From: a virus
Reading direction: 5' to 3' (one strand)
Length of the DNA: 34,379 bases
IMG/VR virus record: IMGVR_UViG_3300027573_000081
Coordinates: 1 to 34,379 of that record
Position numbers and translations under genes: made by a program. Of this stretch, positions 16,862 to 32,247 are shown piece by piece. The notes beneath the pieces are model-generated. The model was not told where the DNA came from and did no database searches. It was given only the letters and a program-made list of their open reading frames with translations. Positions within the stretch are counted from its first letter, which is position 1; each line of letters opens with the position of its first letter.

Positions 16862-16879
16862 AGTTGACCGTTGTCAACC
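16862..16879. repeat. dispersed dyad copy 7
   Basis: AGTTGACCGTTGTCAACC keeps GTTGAC and GTCAAC with an altered centre and one outer change. It ends 21 bases before the start at 16901. Confidence 0.85.
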
Positions 16880-16900: not shown

Positions 16901-18247
16901 ATGACTATCGTCACTGTGTTCGACATCAACAACGCAGCCGTGCGGCTGCGGGAGGGACGAGAATGGCTCGCCTGCCTGCAGTCCTGCTTCGAGCTGCACC
17001 CCGCTGTCATCAGCGCCATCCGCATCGTCGGCGAGATCGACGACAAGGTGCTCTTGCAATGGCCGCATCGCTCGGTCGAGGACAAGAAGATGCTGGCGTA
17101 CACGCGCAGCGAAGAGCACGGCGAGGCCGACCGACAGACGCGGACCACGACGGGCAAGTACCTGCGCGCTGCCTTCCCCACCATGAAGGACAACGTGATC
17201 CGCGATCTCGTCTACGAGGTGGACGTTGCTGTGTCCGAGGGCTTTCGCTTCGTCGAGACGAGCGACGAGATGGTCAACGCCGTGCAGGAGGGGCCCTACT
17301 CCTGCATGCAGTGGGACGACGCCGACCCTCACCCGTATCAGTGCTACGCGCCGCGCTTCGGCTGGAGCATGGCGATTCGAGAACGAGACGGCAACATCCT
17401 GTCCCGTGCCCTCGTCTATGCCGGCGACGCGTGCAGCTACGACAAGGGCTGCTACGTGCGCACCTACGGTGACAACGGTGAGGCCGATCTACTCACCGCG
17501 TGGCTGAACGAGCAGGGCATCGAGAAGGAATCCTCGTGGCCACGCGGTGCCAAGCTGGCGTACGTTCGCAACGGACGCGAGCCCCTCTTTCCGTATATCG
17601 ATGGGAATCGAGATCGGGTGGACATCGTGAGCGACACGCTCGTGCTTCGCGACAACGGCGATTACTGCTGCAACAACAGTGACGGCACGGCGGAGCACAA
17701 CGACTACGAGCAGTGTGAGAACTGCGACGACGACATGTCCGAGGACGATACGAACCACGTCGGGCCCGAGGGCGACACGGTGATCTGCGACCACTGCCGT
17801 GACAACTACTTCACGCTGGTCACGGGCACGAGGCGGCGCGAGTACTACGTGCACGAGGAGCACGCCATCGAGGTGGACGGCGAGTACTACGACGCCAACA
17901 ACCCGCCGAAGGAGATCGTCTGCACGCGTGATGGGGAGAACGCGTGGGCGGAGGACTGCACGGAGCTGGACGGTGACTGGTACCGCTGCGACGATCCGCG
18001 CGTCTGCTTCTCGCGGTCCGAGCAGGAGTACCTGCTGTGCGCCGATGCGTGGCAGTGCGCGGCCACGCAGCAGTGGTACCCGGATCACGTCGATCGTGTC
18101 GAGATCGACGGCGACTACTACCACCCCGACGACGTGCCCGAGGGCTACGAGGTGCCCGACATCGAGAGCCGCTTCGCCGGCCGGCCCGACGGCTACGGCA
18201 CCGAGGGCAGCCTGTCCAACGACAACCAAGAGGAGCTGAGCCTGTGA
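16901..18247 (+). CDS. Cys-rich protein with zinc-ribbon-like pair and triple DG-x-Y repeats (448 aa)
   Basis: I place the start at ATG 16901, after CAAGGAA and 21 bases past a dyad; an in-frame upstream opening would read through the dyad. The N-terminal 250 residues are mixed and unrecognised. At about residues 272-299, CENC and CDHC frame a 20-residue acidic loop, a four-Cys zinc-ribbon-like arrangement. The C-terminal part has three related units, EVDGEYYDANNPP (about 323), ELDGDWYRCDDP (about 354) and EIDGDYYHPDDVP (about 400), each followed by Cys- and Glu-rich sequence. The whole protein is acidic. It may be a metal-binding or protein-binding factor. The function is unknown to me. Its stop overlaps the peptidase start (GTGA), suggesting linked expression. 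Confidence 0.85.
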   Translation: MTIVTVFDINNAAVRLREGREWLACLQSCFELHPAVISAIRIVGEIDDKVLLQWPHRSVEDKKMLAYTRSEEHGEADRQTRTTTGKYLRAAFPTMKDNVIRDLVYEVDVAVSEGFRFVETSDEMVNAVQEGPYSCMQWDDADPHPYQCYAPRFGWSMAIRERDGNILSRALVYAGDACSYDKGCYVRTYGDNGEADLLTAWLNEQGIEKESSWPRGAKLAYVRNGREPLFPYIDGNRDRVDIVSDTLVLRDNGDYCCNNSDGTAEHNDYEQCENCDDDMSEDDTNHVGPEGDTVICDHCRDNYFTLVTGTRRREYYVHEEHAIEVDGEYYDANNPPKEIVCTRDGENAWAEDCTELDGDWYRCDDPRVCFSRSEQEYLLCADAWQCAATQQWYPDHVDRVEIDGDYYHPDDVPEGYEVPDIESRFAGRPDGYGTEGSLSNDNQEELSL

Positions 18248-19281
18248 AGCTGGACCTGTTCGAGCGTGCCATCAGCATCAAGCGTGATGGCGGTACGCCC
18301 AGCGAGATGCGCTTCGTTGCGTACCTCGCCGAGCGCTTTCAACCCACCATGATCGACGAGGCGGGCAACCTGCACTTCGATCGGCGTGGCCACAACTGCG
18401 GCACGCTGTTCGTCGCCCACACGGACACGATCGTGCACAAGGCGGGCAGCGTCAACCTCTGGGAGAAGGACAAGGACGGGTTCTACAAGGCGAAGGGGGA
18501 CACGCTGGGCGCCGACGATGGTGCCGGCATCTGCATCCTCGGCCACCTCATGGACATGGGTGTCCCGGGGTACTACATCTTCTTCCGGGGAGAGGAGGCA
18601 GGTGGTACCGGTTCGCGCTACCTCGCCGAGCGCCACGAGGACTTGTGCGCCGAGTTCGATCGTGCCATCGCGTTCGACCGGCGCGGCTACTCGGACGTGA
18701 TCACGCATCAGGCAGGAGGGCGCTGCGCCAGCGATGCGTTCGCCGAGGCGCTGAGTGACGAGCTGAACTCGGAGGGGCTGCTGTACATGCCCTGCGATGG
18801 CGGCATCTTCACCGACACGGCGAACCTCATGGACCTGATCCCCGAGTGCACGAACGTCAGCGTCGGCTACGACTGGGAGCACAGCGCCAAGGAGGAGCAA
18901 GACGGCAACTACCTGATGCTGCTCGGTGCTGCGTGCGCACGCGTGGACTGGGAGAACCTGCCGACCGAGCGCGACCCTGCCGCGATCGAGGACGACGTGA
19001 CCTTCAAGCTGTACGGCAAGGAGATCAAGGACGAAGGCACCGTGCCGCCCACGCGTAACGCCGAGGACGACCGCATCTGCGAGGCGTGGGAAGCAGCACT
19101 CGACAGGCAGCCGGGCCCGCTGATGACGCTCGTGGCCAAGTACCTCAAGACGGATCGCAACCGGCTCGACGAGGAGGTGTTCAGCCCGGCCGAGGTCTAC
19201 GCGGTGGCGCTCGGCGCCGGGGACTGGCTGCAGGTGATCGAGGAGATCGCCGAGCTGTGCGAGTTGCAGATGCCGCACTAG
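18244..19281 (+). CDS. M20/M28/M42-like di-zinc metallopeptidase
   Basis: The GTG at 18244 overlaps the previous stop. The 345-aa product shows the metal-ligand series of co-catalytic zinc peptidases in order: H59 and D61 in FVAHTDTI, the bridging D91 in LGADDGAG, catalytic and ligand E117-E118 in FRGEEAGG, D145 in AFDRRG, and H213 in WEHSAKE. The fold would be the alpha/beta domain of M20/M28/M42 aminopeptidases and carboxypeptidases. The dimerisation (lid) domain of typical M20 enzymes seems short or absent, so an M28/M42-like enzyme is possible. The last 100 residues are an unrecognised helical extension. No signal peptide is seen, so it would act in the cytoplasm, on peptides or a peptide-like bond. 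The substrate is not evident. Confidence 0.85.
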   Translation: MKLDLFERAISIKRDGGTPSEMRFVAYLAERFQPTMIDEAGNLHFDRRGHNCGTLFVAHTDTIVHKAGSVNLWEKDKDGFYKAKGDTLGADDGAGICILGHLMDMGVPGYYIFFRGEEAGGTGSRYLAERHEDLCAEFDRAIAFDRRGYSDVITHQAGGRCASDAFAEALSDELNSEGLLYMPCDGGIFTDTANLMDLIPECTNVSVGYDWEHSAKEEQDGNYLMLLGAACARVDWENLPTERDPAAIEDDVTFKLYGKEIKDEGTVPPTRNAEDDRICEAWEAALDRQPGPLMTLVAKYLKTDRNRLDEEVFSPAEVYAVALGAGDWLQVIEEIAELCELQMPH

Positions 19282-25777: not shown

Positions 25778-26902
25778 ATGAAGCTCACACTCAACCACAA
25801 GCAGATCGCAGAACTCATCAAGGCCGTCGGCGCCGATCGAACGGTGCTCGTGCAAGGCGAGGCCGGCACGGGCAAGACCACGCTGCTGTACGCGTTGGCG
25901 AAAGACCCGCACTTCGCCAACTACCACGTCGTTGCGCCGATCGACTGCACGCAGTTGTCGGACGGCTCGATCTGGGTGCCGGACATCGACCGTGAGGCCG
26001 GCGTCTCGCGCGAGCTGCCGAACGAGCGCTTCGGCATCAGCAAGGGCAACCACCACGGGGTTGACGGGAGTCAACCCATCCTGCTGTGCTTCGACGAGAT
26101 CGCGAAGGCGCGTCAGTACATCAAGGACGCGATCGCGCCGCTGCTGTACGAGCACCGCAGCGGCGACTACCGCATGCCCAAGGGCAGCGTGGTGTTCGCG
26201 TGCACGAACCTCGGCGCCGAAGGGCTGGGCGACACAATGCAGGGACACCTGCGCGACCGCATCATCGACGTGACGCTGCGCAAGCCGACCGCCGAGGAGT
26301 GGACGGAGAACTTCGCGATGCACCACGACCTGCACCCGGCGATCCTCGCCTGCGTGCAGGAGTACCCGCAGGTGTTCGAGTCGTTCACCGACTACGAGGC
26401 CGACGGTCCGAAGGCCGGGCGCGATCTGGCGCGCGACAACCCGTACATCTTCAACCCGAGGGCGACGCAGGACAAATGGGCAACACCCCGGAGCCTCCAT
26501 GCGGCGAGCGACATCCTCCACAAGGGAGGAGCACTCGACAACGACACGATCACGGCGGCGCTCAACGGCACCATCGGCCGCGCATACACCGCGCTGCTGA
26601 TGGCATACGTGCGCTTCGGCCAGTCGCTGCCGGCGTTCAGCGTGATCCTCGCTGACCCGGCGGGCACGCCCGTGCCGGTCAATCCCGGCGCCAAGGTGAT
26701 GCTGGCCTTCCGCCTGATCCAGCAGGTGAAGGAGCGGCAGGAAGCCGAGGCGGTGAGCCAGTACATGGCGCGCTTCCCCGGCGAGATGAAGCTGCTGTTC
26801 GCGAGCAACGTGTCCAACAACACCAAGAAGATGGGCCTGTTCTCGCGGTCGGCGACCTTCACCAAGGAGCTGGCCAAGAGCCTCAAGGTTCTCAACGCTT
26901 AA
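25778..26902 (+). CDS. MoxR-like AAA+ ATPase
   Basis: ATG 25778 follows GAAAGAAG. The 374-aa chain has Walker A GEAGTGKT at 27-34, Walker B ILLCFDE at about 101-107, and a sensor-1 segment VVFACTNLG near 145. Arg-containing GHLRDRIIDVTLRKPTAEEW (about 160) is typical of MoxR/AAA_5 family proteins. These ATPases work with VWA-domain partners, and a VWA protein lies directly downstream, so they probably form a remodelling or maturation complex. The substrate is unknown. A dyad copy lies inside the gene just before the Walker B codons (GVDGSQP). The C-terminal third is helical (lid) and ends with FTKELAKSLKVLNA. Confidence 0.88.
   Translation: MKLTLNHKQIAELIKAVGADRTVLVQGEAGTGKTTLLYALAKDPHFANYHVVAPIDCTQLSDGSIWVPDIDREAGVSRELPNERFGISKGNHHGVDGSQPILLCFDEIAKARQYIKDAIAPLLYEHRSGDYRMPKGSVVFACTNLGAEGLGDTMQGHLRDRIIDVTLRKPTAEEWTENFAMHHDLHPAILACVQEYPQVFESFTDYEADGPKAGRDLARDNPYIFNPRATQDKWATPRSLHAASDILHKGGALDNDTITAALNGTIGRAYTALLMAYVRFGQSLPAFSVILADPAGTPVPVNPGAKVMLAFRLIQQVKERQEAEAVSQYMARFPGEMKLLFASNVSNNTKKMGLFSRSATFTKELAKSLKVLNA
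26059..26076. repeat. dispersed dyad copy 10 (inside the AAA+ gene)
   Basis: GGTTGACGGGAGTCAACC keeps both 7-base arms within coding sequence, about 280 bases into the ATPase gene. There is no start codon close downstream. Confidence 0.85.
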
Positions 26903-26911
26903 GGAGTCTTC

Positions 26912-28126
26912 ATGACCACCAACTACGACGGGCTCAATGCGCGGGAGCGCATCGCCCGCATTCACATCGACCTGATGCAGGACCCCGAGTTCTCGCGCAT
27001 CGGGCCGGTGACGCAGATCGGCGACGTGCACATCAAAGACATCCCTACCGCACAGACGAACGGGCTTGATGTGTGGTACAGCGAGGCGTGGACGCTGAAG
27101 CTCAGTCGGGGCCAACTCCGCTACGTTGTGGCGCACGAGCAGTTGCACAAGCTGCTCATGCACTGCACGCTGTACAACGCCGCGTTCAAGAAGCACCCGC
27201 AGGAATCCGCGCAAGCGGTGGACTACGTGGTCAACCTCGTCGTCGAGGACATGGACAAGAAGCGGGGCTTCGTCGAACGACCGACGGACTTCCCGCCGCT
27301 GATCGACGAGAAGTACCGGGACTGGTCCTGCATGGAGGTGTTGCAGGACTTGATCAACAACGGCGACGACGGCACGGGCGGCGGTGGCAAGGGCACCGGC
27401 AAGGGCGGCACCGCACCTCCGATGGACGAGCACATCCAGCGCGAGCCCGGCGACGGCGACGCCGCGAAGGCGAAGGAGGAAGAGCAGGCGCTGGAGGACG
27501 CGCATGTGCAGGGCGAGATCACCAGTGCCCGGCTGCGTGGCACGAGCGCAGGCGGCGCATCGCTCAAGGGCTTCGAGAAGACCCAGACCGAGTGGCGCGA
27601 TCCGCTGCGCCAGTTCATGGTCGAGGCGATGGAGGGCGACGAGATGTCGCGCTGGTGCCCGCCCAACAAGCTGTTCCGTCCGCTGGGCATCATGCTGCCC
27701 TCGCACTTCGCGGAGGCAGCGGGCGGGCTCGTGGTGGCGTGCGACACGTCGGGCTCGATGCGGGCGTACTACGCCCGCGTGTTCGGCGAGATCGGGCGCG
27801 TGGCCGAGCAGGTGCAGCCGCAGTGGATCATCGTGATCTGGTGGGACAGCAAGGTGCAGTCGGTGCAACAGTTCGTACCGGCTGACTATCCGACGCTGGC
27901 CACGAAGCTCAATGCCAAGGGCGGCGGGGGCACCATCGTGTCGTGCGTGGCGCAGTACATGGCCAAGGCCAAGCTCAAGCCGAAGGCCACGATCATCCTC
28001 ACGGACGGCGAGATCGAGTCGCAGTACGAGTGCCCGCCCGGCCCGCTGCTGTGGGGCGTGGTCGGCAACGCGCGGTTCCGTCCGCTGAAAGGCAAGCTGC
28101 TGCGCATCGGAAAGGAGACGCTGTGA
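26912..28126 (+). CDS. metallopeptidase-like plus VWA domain protein (DUF2201 type), partner of the AAA+ ATPase
   Basis: ATG 26912 follows AAGGAG nine bases after the ATPase stop. The 404-aa product has an N-terminal metallopeptidase-like domain with HEQLH (HExxH) at 75-79, another His at 84, and AVDYVVNLVVED at about 102-113, the D-x(2)-[IV]N pattern typical of DUF2201. A Gly/Lys-rich linker (about 152-170) follows. The C-terminal VWA-like domain has MIDAS motif DTSGS at 278-282, GGGGTIVS and LTDGEIES. Related proteins pair with MoxR-like ATPases in phages and bacteria. The likely role is substrate recruitment, possibly with proteolysis, by the AAA+ complex. The target is unknown. Confidence 0.86.
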   Translation: MTTNYDGLNARERIARIHIDLMQDPEFSRIGPVTQIGDVHIKDIPTAQTNGLDVWYSEAWTLKLSRGQLRYVVAHEQLHKLLMHCTLYNAAFKKHPQESAQAVDYVVNLVVEDMDKKRGFVERPTDFPPLIDEKYRDWSCMEVLQDLINNGDDGTGGGGKGTGKGGTAPPMDEHIQREPGDGDAAKAKEEEQALEDAHVQGEITSARLRGTSAGGASLKGFEKTQTEWRDPLRQFMVEAMEGDEMSRWCPPNKLFRPLGIMLPSHFAEAAGGLVVACDTSGSMRAYYARVFGEIGRVAEQVQPQWIIVIWWDSKVQSVQQFVPADYPTLATKLNAKGGGGTIVSCVAQYMAKAKLKPKATIILTDGEIESQYECPPGPLLWGVVGNARFRPLKGKLLRIGKETL

Positions 28127-30911: not shown

Positions 30912-31517
30912 ATGAAGAAACTTTTCCTTGCGGCAGCAGCAGCGCTGGCGTTCTTCGCCGGACCTGCGAGCGCGGTCGTCGTCTGCGACAACTGCGTCTA
31001 CATCACGGGCCAGCCGGCGACGAACTTGGGCGAGCACGACCCGTCCATGTTCGACAACAGCACCTTCGGCAACGCCACCACGGGGCAGAACGGGAACTTC
31101 AGCAATACGTGGGTCTTCGACATCAACCCGGCCGGCAACGCAGCGCTCGACGTGATCTTCCTGCCGATCGCGAACATCAGCAACTTCACGGTGCGGCTGT
31201 TCGATGTGGTCAGCTCGACGTGCGGCGGCACGGGCGCTGCCTGCACGGCGCTGACGTTGGGCGGTCTGCTGGCAACGAGCAACACGATCCCCAACTACGC
31301 CTCGGTGCTGGACTTCACCGGGCCGCTCGACGGGACCTACGCCTTCGAGGTCAGCGGCACGATCAGCGGCTTGCTCGCCGGTCAGCCCGCGTCCTACGTC
31401 GGCAACCTGCAGACCGTGGCGGCGATCCCCGAGCCGGAGACGTACGCGCTGTTCGGCGCCGGCCTCGCCGCGCTGGCGTTCCTGCGCCGCAAGAAGAAGG
31501 GGGGTGCGCAAGCCTGA
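30912..31517 (+). CDS. PEP-CTERM sorting domain protein A
   Basis: ATG 30912 follows AGGAGC. The 201-aa precursor has a signal peptide (MKKLFLAAAAALAFFAGPAS, cleavage expected after residue 21, ASA). Its secreted body includes GNFSNTWVFDINPAGNAALD, which resembles the G-x-F-x-D-x-[FW] strand of FxDxF-type PEP-CTERM proteins, and CGGTGAAC. The C-terminal sorting signal reads IPEPETY (PEP at 173-175), a hydrophobic helix (ALFGAGLAALAFL) and a basic tail (RRKKK). In exosortase-bearing Gram-negative bacteria this signal directs processing and surface or matrix delivery. No exosortase is encoded in this window, so the host would have to supply it. Such a protein in a phage replication region is unusual; a host-derived accessory gene is the likely source. 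Confidence 0.92.
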   Translation: MKKLFLAAAAALAFFAGPASAVVVCDNCVYITGQPATNLGEHDPSMFDNSTFGNATTGQNGNFSNTWVFDINPAGNAALDVIFLPIANISNFTVRLFDVVSSTCGGTGAACTALTLGGLLATSNTIPNYASVLDFTGPLDGTYAFEVSGTISGLLAGQPASYVGNLQTVAAIPEPETYALFGAGLAALAFLRRKKKGGAQA

Positions 31518-31584: not shown

Positions 31585-32247
31585 ATGAAGAAATTCTTCC
31601 TCGCGATCGCCACGGCGCTCGCACTCATCCATATACCCGCGCAAGCGGTGGACATCGGCTTCACCAACGAGTTCAGCGGTGGCACCGACTGCGCCGTTGC
31701 GGCCACGGGGTGCTCGACCCTCACGGTGACTTCGTTCGTTGGCGGGGTCCACTTCGAGCTGCAAGGCACGATGGTTCCGGGCGAGTTCGTCCGCGAGCTG
31801 TCGGGCAACTACAACGGCGGTCCGCTCACCATCTCCAACGTGACGGGCAACACGGAGACGTTCCTGGGCTTCGAGTTCGCCAGCAACGCCTTCAAGGCAG
31901 ACGGTGATGGGTTCTTCGACTGGATCATCCATCTGGACAACGCCCCGCCCGGCAACCGGTTCAACGGCACGGACACGCTGTCGTGGGACTTCCTCGGCGC
32001 CACGTTGTCGCAGTTCAACAGCCTGAGCGTGAACGGACCGGAAGGCAAGAACGGCTTCCTGTTCGCCACTCACGCGCAAGGGCTGGCCAACGGCGGCAGC
32101 GGCTGGTTCAACGGCACGGTCCCGCCCGGAGGCACCCCCTTCGACGTGACGCCGGTCCCTGAGCCCGAGACGTACGCGCTGTTCGCAGCCGGCCTTGCCG
32201 CGCTGGCCTACATGCAGCGTCGTCGCAAGAAGCAAGAGCAAGCCTAA
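31585..32247 (+). CDS. PEP-CTERM sorting domain protein B
   Basis: I choose ATG 31585 because it opens a typical signal peptide (MKKFFLAIATALALIHIPAQ, cleavage expected after residue 21, AQA); a longer frame starting upstream would bury this and cross the terminator. The 220-aa precursor body contains WDFLGATLSQFNSLSVNGPE and FLFATHAQGLANGGSGWFNG. This [AT]H-x-QG-x-x-x-G-x-SGW pattern is one I associate with PEP-CTERM family proteins. The C-terminus has VPEPETY (PEP at 192-194), a hydrophobic helix (ALFAAGLAALAYM) and a basic tail (QRRRKK). Signal and sorting regions closely match protein A, but the bodies differ. The two are best seen as related modules with a shared address and divergent cargo. 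Confidence 0.92.
   Translation: MKKFFLAIATALALIHIPAQAVDIGFTNEFSGGTDCAVAATGCSTLTVTSFVGGVHFELQGTMVPGEFVRELSGNYNGGPLTISNVTGNTETFLGFEFASNAFKADGDGFFDWIIHLDNAPPGNRFNGTDTLSWDFLGATLSQFNSLSVNGPEGKNGFLFATHAQGLANGGSGWFNGTVPPGGTPFDVTPVPEPETYALFAAGLAALAYMQRRRKKQEQA

Follow-up and report, generated by a model that had tools for sequence, protein, structure and literature searches.

What does a phage gain from a predicted cytoplasmic di-zinc peptidase, and why does the gene for it overlap the one in front? The window, the whole stretch of 34,379 nucleotides from IMG/VR virus record IMGVR_UViG_3300027573_000081, carries both genes on the same strand: the peptidase gene begins with a GTG codon that overlaps the stop of the upstream gene as GTGA (18244-18247), and a GAGGAG ribosome-binding-like site lies just 5' of that GTG (18230-18235). 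Our tentative answer, to which we assign a probability of roughly 45%, is that the pair forms a partner-guided exopeptidase/deacylase unit used early in infection. The two genes, their junction and the parts of the peptidase are as follows:

16901 to 18247, plus strand: partner gene, with an N-terminal helical region, an SCM core, a four-Cys ribbon and beta-hairpin repeats; the proteins of phrog_6980/13313 are homologues
18230 to 18247, plus strand: GAGGAG site and GTGA stop/start overlap, coupling partner and peptidase
18244 to 19281, plus strand: peptidase gene, a lid-less clan MH (M20B/M28-type) di-metal peptidase of 345 aa, PHROG 4191
18418 to 18426, plus strand: H59-T-D61, a metal-ligand His and the Asp orienting it (sequence; invariant in 37 relatives)
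18514 to 18516, plus strand: D91, the bridging metal ligand, in GADDG (sequence, 37-member alignment, PepT profile alignment)
18592 to 18597, plus strand: E117 (acid/base) and E118 (metal ligand) (sequence, 37-member alignment, PepT profile alignment)
18676 to 18678, plus strand: D145, a metal ligand, in FDR (sequence, 37-member alignment)
18880 to 18882, plus strand: H213, a metal ligand, in WEH (sequence, 37-member alignment, PepT profile alignment)
18994 to 19278, plus strand: C-terminal extension, residues 251-345, its first part of low confidence in the model and variable across the family

Is the enzyme likely to work? The translation contains H59-T-D61, G-A-D91-D-G, G-E117-E118, F-D145-R and E-H213, which place five metal ligands and the acid/base Glu in the clan MH order (H-x-D, D, E-E, D/E, H). 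The initial annotation had read these motifs as a complete ligand set with the right order and spacing, and the reading holds: none of the seven residues (H59, D61, D91, E117, E118, D145, H213) varies in an alignment of 10 phage proteins (the window protein and nine others) or in one of 37 (the window protein and 36 phage or prophage proteins). Since these ligands do not vary and residues 10-255 match the PHROG 4191 profile ("peptidase") with an E-value of 7.1e-61, the motif set is real, far beyond chance. A lack of phage homologues with this ligand set, together with signs of decay, had been named at the outset as what would count against an active enzyme; the relatives instead keep every ligand, and the omega values (a median of 0.14 in 42 pairs, and 0.19 when the window is paired with L002) place the gene under purifying selection. 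The peptidase is intact and, because its metal site is complete and selection maintains it, probably active rather than decaying, as had been suggested from the sequence. It also lacks a hydrophobic N-terminus or any membrane-like stretch (the highest 19-residue Kyte-Doolittle mean is 1.32), in line with the earlier view that it carries no secretion signal and is unlikely to be a lysin.

To which class does it belong? In the AlphaFold2 model, most blocks within residues 1-240 have a mean pLDDT above 90; confidence is poor at 250-290. The comparison with M20, M28 and M42 enzymes that the initial annotation had called for places the predicted catalytic domain, which has the common alpha/beta fold of clan MH, on PepT 3rza (Z 26.8, 2.1 Å, 230 aligned residues) and on 3gb0 (Z 26.2) among solved structures; the top Foldseek ranks are TET and PepT enzymes. 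A profile of the 37 relatives finds PepT 3gb0 first (E 5.7e-13), next the S. aureus tripeptidase and then TET1, and in the alignment to 3gb0 the HxD, LGADD, GEE and GYxxxH blocks coincide with the PepT ligand blocks. With the window sequence alone, Pfam and NCBIfam give weak matches only (14.8 bits to Pfam M28, PF04389, against a curated cut-off of 21.3), and phmmer against the PDB returns only chance lipase matches; 34 of the 37 relatives match Pfam M28 at E<=0.01. Spacing settles the domain layout: ligands 4 and 5 (D145 to H213) are only 68 residues apart, so the M20 lid/dimerisation domain is absent, and ligands 1 and 2 (H59 to D91) are only 32 apart, compared with about 105 in PhTET1 (chain 66 to 171), so the M42 insert is absent too. 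With neither present, the peptidase is single-domain in the manner of M28, with motifs nearest M20B; on the predicted model, we would file it in clan MH and PHROG 4191 rather than in M20, M28 or M42 proper. The Asp at ligand 4 was considered as proof of an aminopeptidase and dropped, since an Asp occupies this position in glutamate carboxypeptidase II as well.

Such enzymes had been called uncommon in phages, which is right as a fraction of records and wrong as a description of the family. By tblastn, relatives occur in 369 of 50,697 phage records (382 with another query), mainly in Klebsiella, Pectobacterium and Vibrio podoviruses, and also in Thermus, Pseudomonas and Bradyrhizobium/Rhizobium phages and in huge metagenomic phages. 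An alignment-based scan puts the number of viral contigs that encode the peptidase at 469 or more; an alignment was needed, as scanning these contigs with a single protein turned up just one relative, 93% identical. Records of Drulisvirus, Phimunavirus and Maculvirus carry the peptidase annotation, and in Phimunavirus the gene is one of six conserved early ORFs, its function given only as "peptidase (IPR007484)" (PMC6115819). The family itself is therefore known already, by annotation. The open-access literature that we searched yielded annotation papers only: none tests the peptidase or mentions a paired neighbour, and we found there no tested function for either protein. It is the conserved two-gene unit that this literature leaves unmentioned.

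How firmly are the two genes linked? Partner homologues lie directly 5' of the peptidase in KP34 (gp10, phrog_6980), CB5 (gp14, phrog_13313), Ep4, BDU-MI-1, OWB and Pasto. When viral contigs are scanned with the peptidase only, the partner, detected with a core HMM, is upstream in 73 of the 74 loci that have enough upstream sequence (counted from the printed table), L058 being the exception. When the partner is the query (the full-length partner alignment is too diverse for a collection scan), the peptidase follows on the same strand in 76 of 80 loci; inspection adds a downstream peptidase at L162, L180 and L181, and the contig of L159 ends 193 bp past the partner. Gaps in the partner scan are mostly between -4 and +12 bp, with -4 bp the commonest value. 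A second partner scan gives a like picture, its exceptions being L202 and L203, where the sequence available downstream of the partner shows no peptidase. As related phages may share the pair by descent, the peptidases were grouped at 50% identity into 19 clusters: the partner is adjacent in 15 of these (14 upstream, one downstream), and every other neighbour family occurs in at most five. The 15/19 figure is not an unbiased rate, some clusters having been found through the partner, but either scan direction suffices by itself to show the link. Because the same neighbour recurs in most lineages, peptidase and partner probably act together in early infection. The initial annotation had offered the coupled upstream gene as "partner or substrate": the conserved adjacency favours the first and leaves the second less likely.

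The remaining four clusters (Thermus G20c, a huge phage, L093/L094 and L098) have no partner nearby, which indicates that the peptidase can work alone. Could it then be a recycling enzyme, a PepT-like aminopeptidase that finishes the degradation of host peptides for phage protein synthesis, with the partner a merely co-regulated neighbour? The existence of phages with the peptidase only would suit such a role, and so would its nearest solved relatives, which are tripeptidases and Xaa-His dipeptidases. A housekeeping scavenger is nevertheless hard to reconcile with a partner that tracks the peptidase across very different phages when other neighbours do not, and hosts usually possess such peptidases of their own; we consider recycling unlikely, while granting it a real share of the probability.

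Some loci vary the arrangement. On a Spirochaetaceae MAG contig (L092) the order is reversed, peptidase first and then partner; at L198, L207 and L216 a second partner copy, in tandem or flanking, accompanies one peptidase gene. An HNH/AP2-type homing-endonuclease-like ORF (6667-7311 of L114) separates partner and peptidase on the contig shared by L011 and L114, whose gap of 927 bp is the sole large one in the partner scan. In Bradyrhizobium phage BDU-MI-1 (L006), a rIIA-like gene lies directly 3' of the cassette. The idea that the C-terminal extension is tied to the partner was rejected: L027, L033 and L038 are short and have a partner, and L008 is long and has none.

Elsewhere in the window, two tandem genes (30912-31517 and 31585-32247, both plus strand), just 5' of the phage DNA polymerase gene, encode proteins with signal-peptide-like starts (MKKLFLAAAAALAFFAGPASA and MKKFFLAIATALALIHIPAQA) and PEP-CTERM-like tails (IPEPETYALFGAGLAALAFLRRKKK and VPEPETYALFAAGLAALAYMQRRRKK); the second exceeds the Pfam PF07589 cut-off (28.3 vs 20.7), and the sequences of the two suggest phage-borne exosortase substrates. 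A MoxR-like AAA ATPase (25778-26902, plus strand) adjoins a DUF2201 protein (metallopeptidase-like plus VWA; 26912-28126, plus strand), which PHROG labels "HNH endonuclease"; a similar MoxR/vWA pair has been reported in jumbo phages (PMC7824862), and Thermus phage G20c has a vWA/Lon-chaperone pair near its peptidase. The MoxR/vWA (DUF2201) pair, present in the window and in two huge phages, was considered as part of the cassette and set aside, because no more than 4 of the 29 records that carry the cassette have DUF2201_N.

When would the pair act? In KP34, CB5, Ep4 and OWB it lies upstream of the primase. This early-region position, like that of the Phimunavirus ORFs (PMC6115819), would also suit a hydrolase that destroys a small acylated or peptidyl signal, or a modification made by a host defence, with the partner sensing or binding it; in Rhizobium phage Pasto (L010), an ArdA-like antirestriction gene sits immediately 5' of the pair. 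The ArdA neighbour is a single case, however, and PADLOC models give no match. We know of no defence molecule established as a clan MH substrate, and a counter-defence role seems to us improbable.

What, then, could the partner contribute? Its ATG at 16901 is preceded by an AAGGA site, with an alternative TTG start possible at 16871, and its predicted model has a mean pLDDT of 90. Three parts stand out:

17240 to 17536, plus strand: partner core, residues 124-222 (SCM ... R ... YG), whose predicted fold is weakly GNAT-like and which extends to PYxD, residue 244 (17602)
17714 to 17806, plus strand: four-Cys ribbon, C282, C285, C309 and C312 (sequence; partner alignment)
17864 to 18121, plus strand: beta-hairpin repeats, three ExDGxYY-like units (sequence and predicted model)

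The four-Cys and triple-repeat architecture noticed at the start is therefore there: two CxxC pairs (C282/C285 and C309/C312) and three similar hairpins, with the units EVDGEYY, ELDGDWY and EIDGDYY. The invariant core positions are S-C-M, P, Y, R, Y and P-Y-x-D. Residues 124-222 of the model resemble GNAT-type acetyltransferases, with Z up to 8.0 over about 93 aligned residues among VIA matches that, as listed, are nearly all GNAT-type, a Z level that may reflect merely a common arrangement; lower in the list come aminoacyl-tRNA-dependent peptide synthases, which share that fold. The best Foldseek E-value for the GNAT-like match is a weak 0.02, Pfam and PDB profiles give no match to the partner, and an hhalign comparison of partner and GNAT profiles returned nothing, as did its positive control. 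The acyl-CoA loop [RQ]-x-x-G-x-[GA] is not conserved: L003 and L006 have R-x-Y-G-x-A, and many partners lack the Gly. A GNAT-like core is thus a weak lead from the predicted model. PcfJ was considered as a possible relation of the SCM core, but the genomes tried gave no PcfJ hits. The tail, ribbon and hairpins together, may serve as a binding surface; it was also considered as a fast-evolving arms-race element, an idea prompted by an omega of 0.81 for the window pair and abandoned when the median over 42 pairs came to 0.29, against 0.24 for the core.

Could this protein instead be what the peptidase cuts, a precursor that is trimmed or matured by the enzyme encoded after it? Coupled expression and co-occurrence are what a processing pair would show, and the tail is more variable than the core. 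To our knowledge, however, clan MH enzymes are exopeptidases, and an exopeptidase would trim an end only; the partner, large, confidently modelled and with a constrained, conserved core, looks more like an active component, which leaves the substrate reading somewhat less credible than a counter-defence role. A peptidase for virion maturation or lysis, suggested by the head genes on the same contig, is very improbable: in Autographiviridae the gene sits in the early region by the primase, far from the structural genes, and the protein combines an exopeptidase fold with the absence of any signal or membrane segment.

How might a partner-guided unit operate? The two translationally coupled genes would yield one two-component unit, whose second member would be a clan MH hydrolase with a single domain, located in the cytoplasm and capable of di-zinc catalysis. 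Because the nearest solved relatives of this hydrolase are PepT-type aminopeptidases, a peptide or protein would most likely lose to it either N-terminal residues or an acyl group in amide linkage. Specificity would come from the partner: its zinc ribbon and hairpin repeats would bind the target, and its SCM core, if GNAT-like, would bind or modify the target's terminal amine and then hand the target over to the hydrolase. The unit would act early in infection, in host takeover or in protection. If the partner does guide the hydrolase, phages would have a new route for changing the proteins of the host at an early stage of infection. Annotations of the peptidase run throughout Klebsiella, Pectobacterium and Vibrio phages, and the pairing makes two genes called "hypothetical" or "putative" into one unit that can be tested in laboratory phages, KP34 among them.

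The huge phage LR756504 (636 kb; L232-L240) has eight peptidase copies, several of 700-870 aa, and no fewer than seven SCM-core proteins with the pattern SCMR...GRAIVW...DRIY; the two kinds of gene are mostly not adjacent. At L237 (3503-5605), eight CxxCxGxG-like zinc-type repeats, arranged as in the DnaJ-type zinc region, form one fusion protein with the peptidase, which links a zinc-binding module to the enzyme. A bolder version of the partner-guided unit, which we hold to be a long shot, would be a host-takeover module in which a GNAT-like SCM zinc-ribbon protein tags or presents the N-termini of chosen proteins, perhaps by transferring an acyl or aminoacyl group, and a dedicated di-zinc exopeptidase removes residues there: a pair of N-terminal writer and trimmer that controls the fate of host proteins and has been amplified in one huge phage. 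Such a module, if real, would be previously undescribed.

How does the window pair compare with known systems? KP34 gp11 and CB5 gp15, of Klebsiella and Pectobacterium phages, belong to the same PHROG 4191 family and share its invariant ligands and upstream neighbour; the window peptidase is about 30-45% identical to members from isolated phages and differs in its C-terminal extension. The PepT tripeptidases of M20B (3rza, 3gb0) have similar ligand motifs (SHMDTV / LGADD / GEESG / GYExxH) and a similar catalytic-domain fold, but their chain spans about 370 residues for what the window model covers in residues 1-239, the window enzyme having no lid/dimerisation domain. The M28 Aeromonas aminopeptidase 1amp, whose ligands are H97, D117, E152, D179 and H256 (PMC7522609), shares the five ligand types, their order and the single-domain layout, with a spacing of 20 between ligands 1 and 2 where the window peptidase has 32. 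TET aminopeptidases of M42 share the catalytic-domain fold and give the best Foldseek E-values, but carry between ligands 1 and 2 an inserted domain that the window peptidase lacks. For the pair as a whole, the closest parallel is Rac of phiKMV/LUZ19, an early GNAT that leads to cleavage of the RNA polymerase alpha subunit (PMC7552054; discussed also in PMC7824862); according to the abstract, which names no paired phage peptidase, Rac likely taps a host modification mechanism (PMC7552054). The likeness to the partner is at most a possible analogy: a GNAT-type protein, from a related podovirus group, tied to proteolysis in host takeover. Rac is the sole described precedent that we found for a GNAT-type protein leading to host-protein cleavage in related phages.
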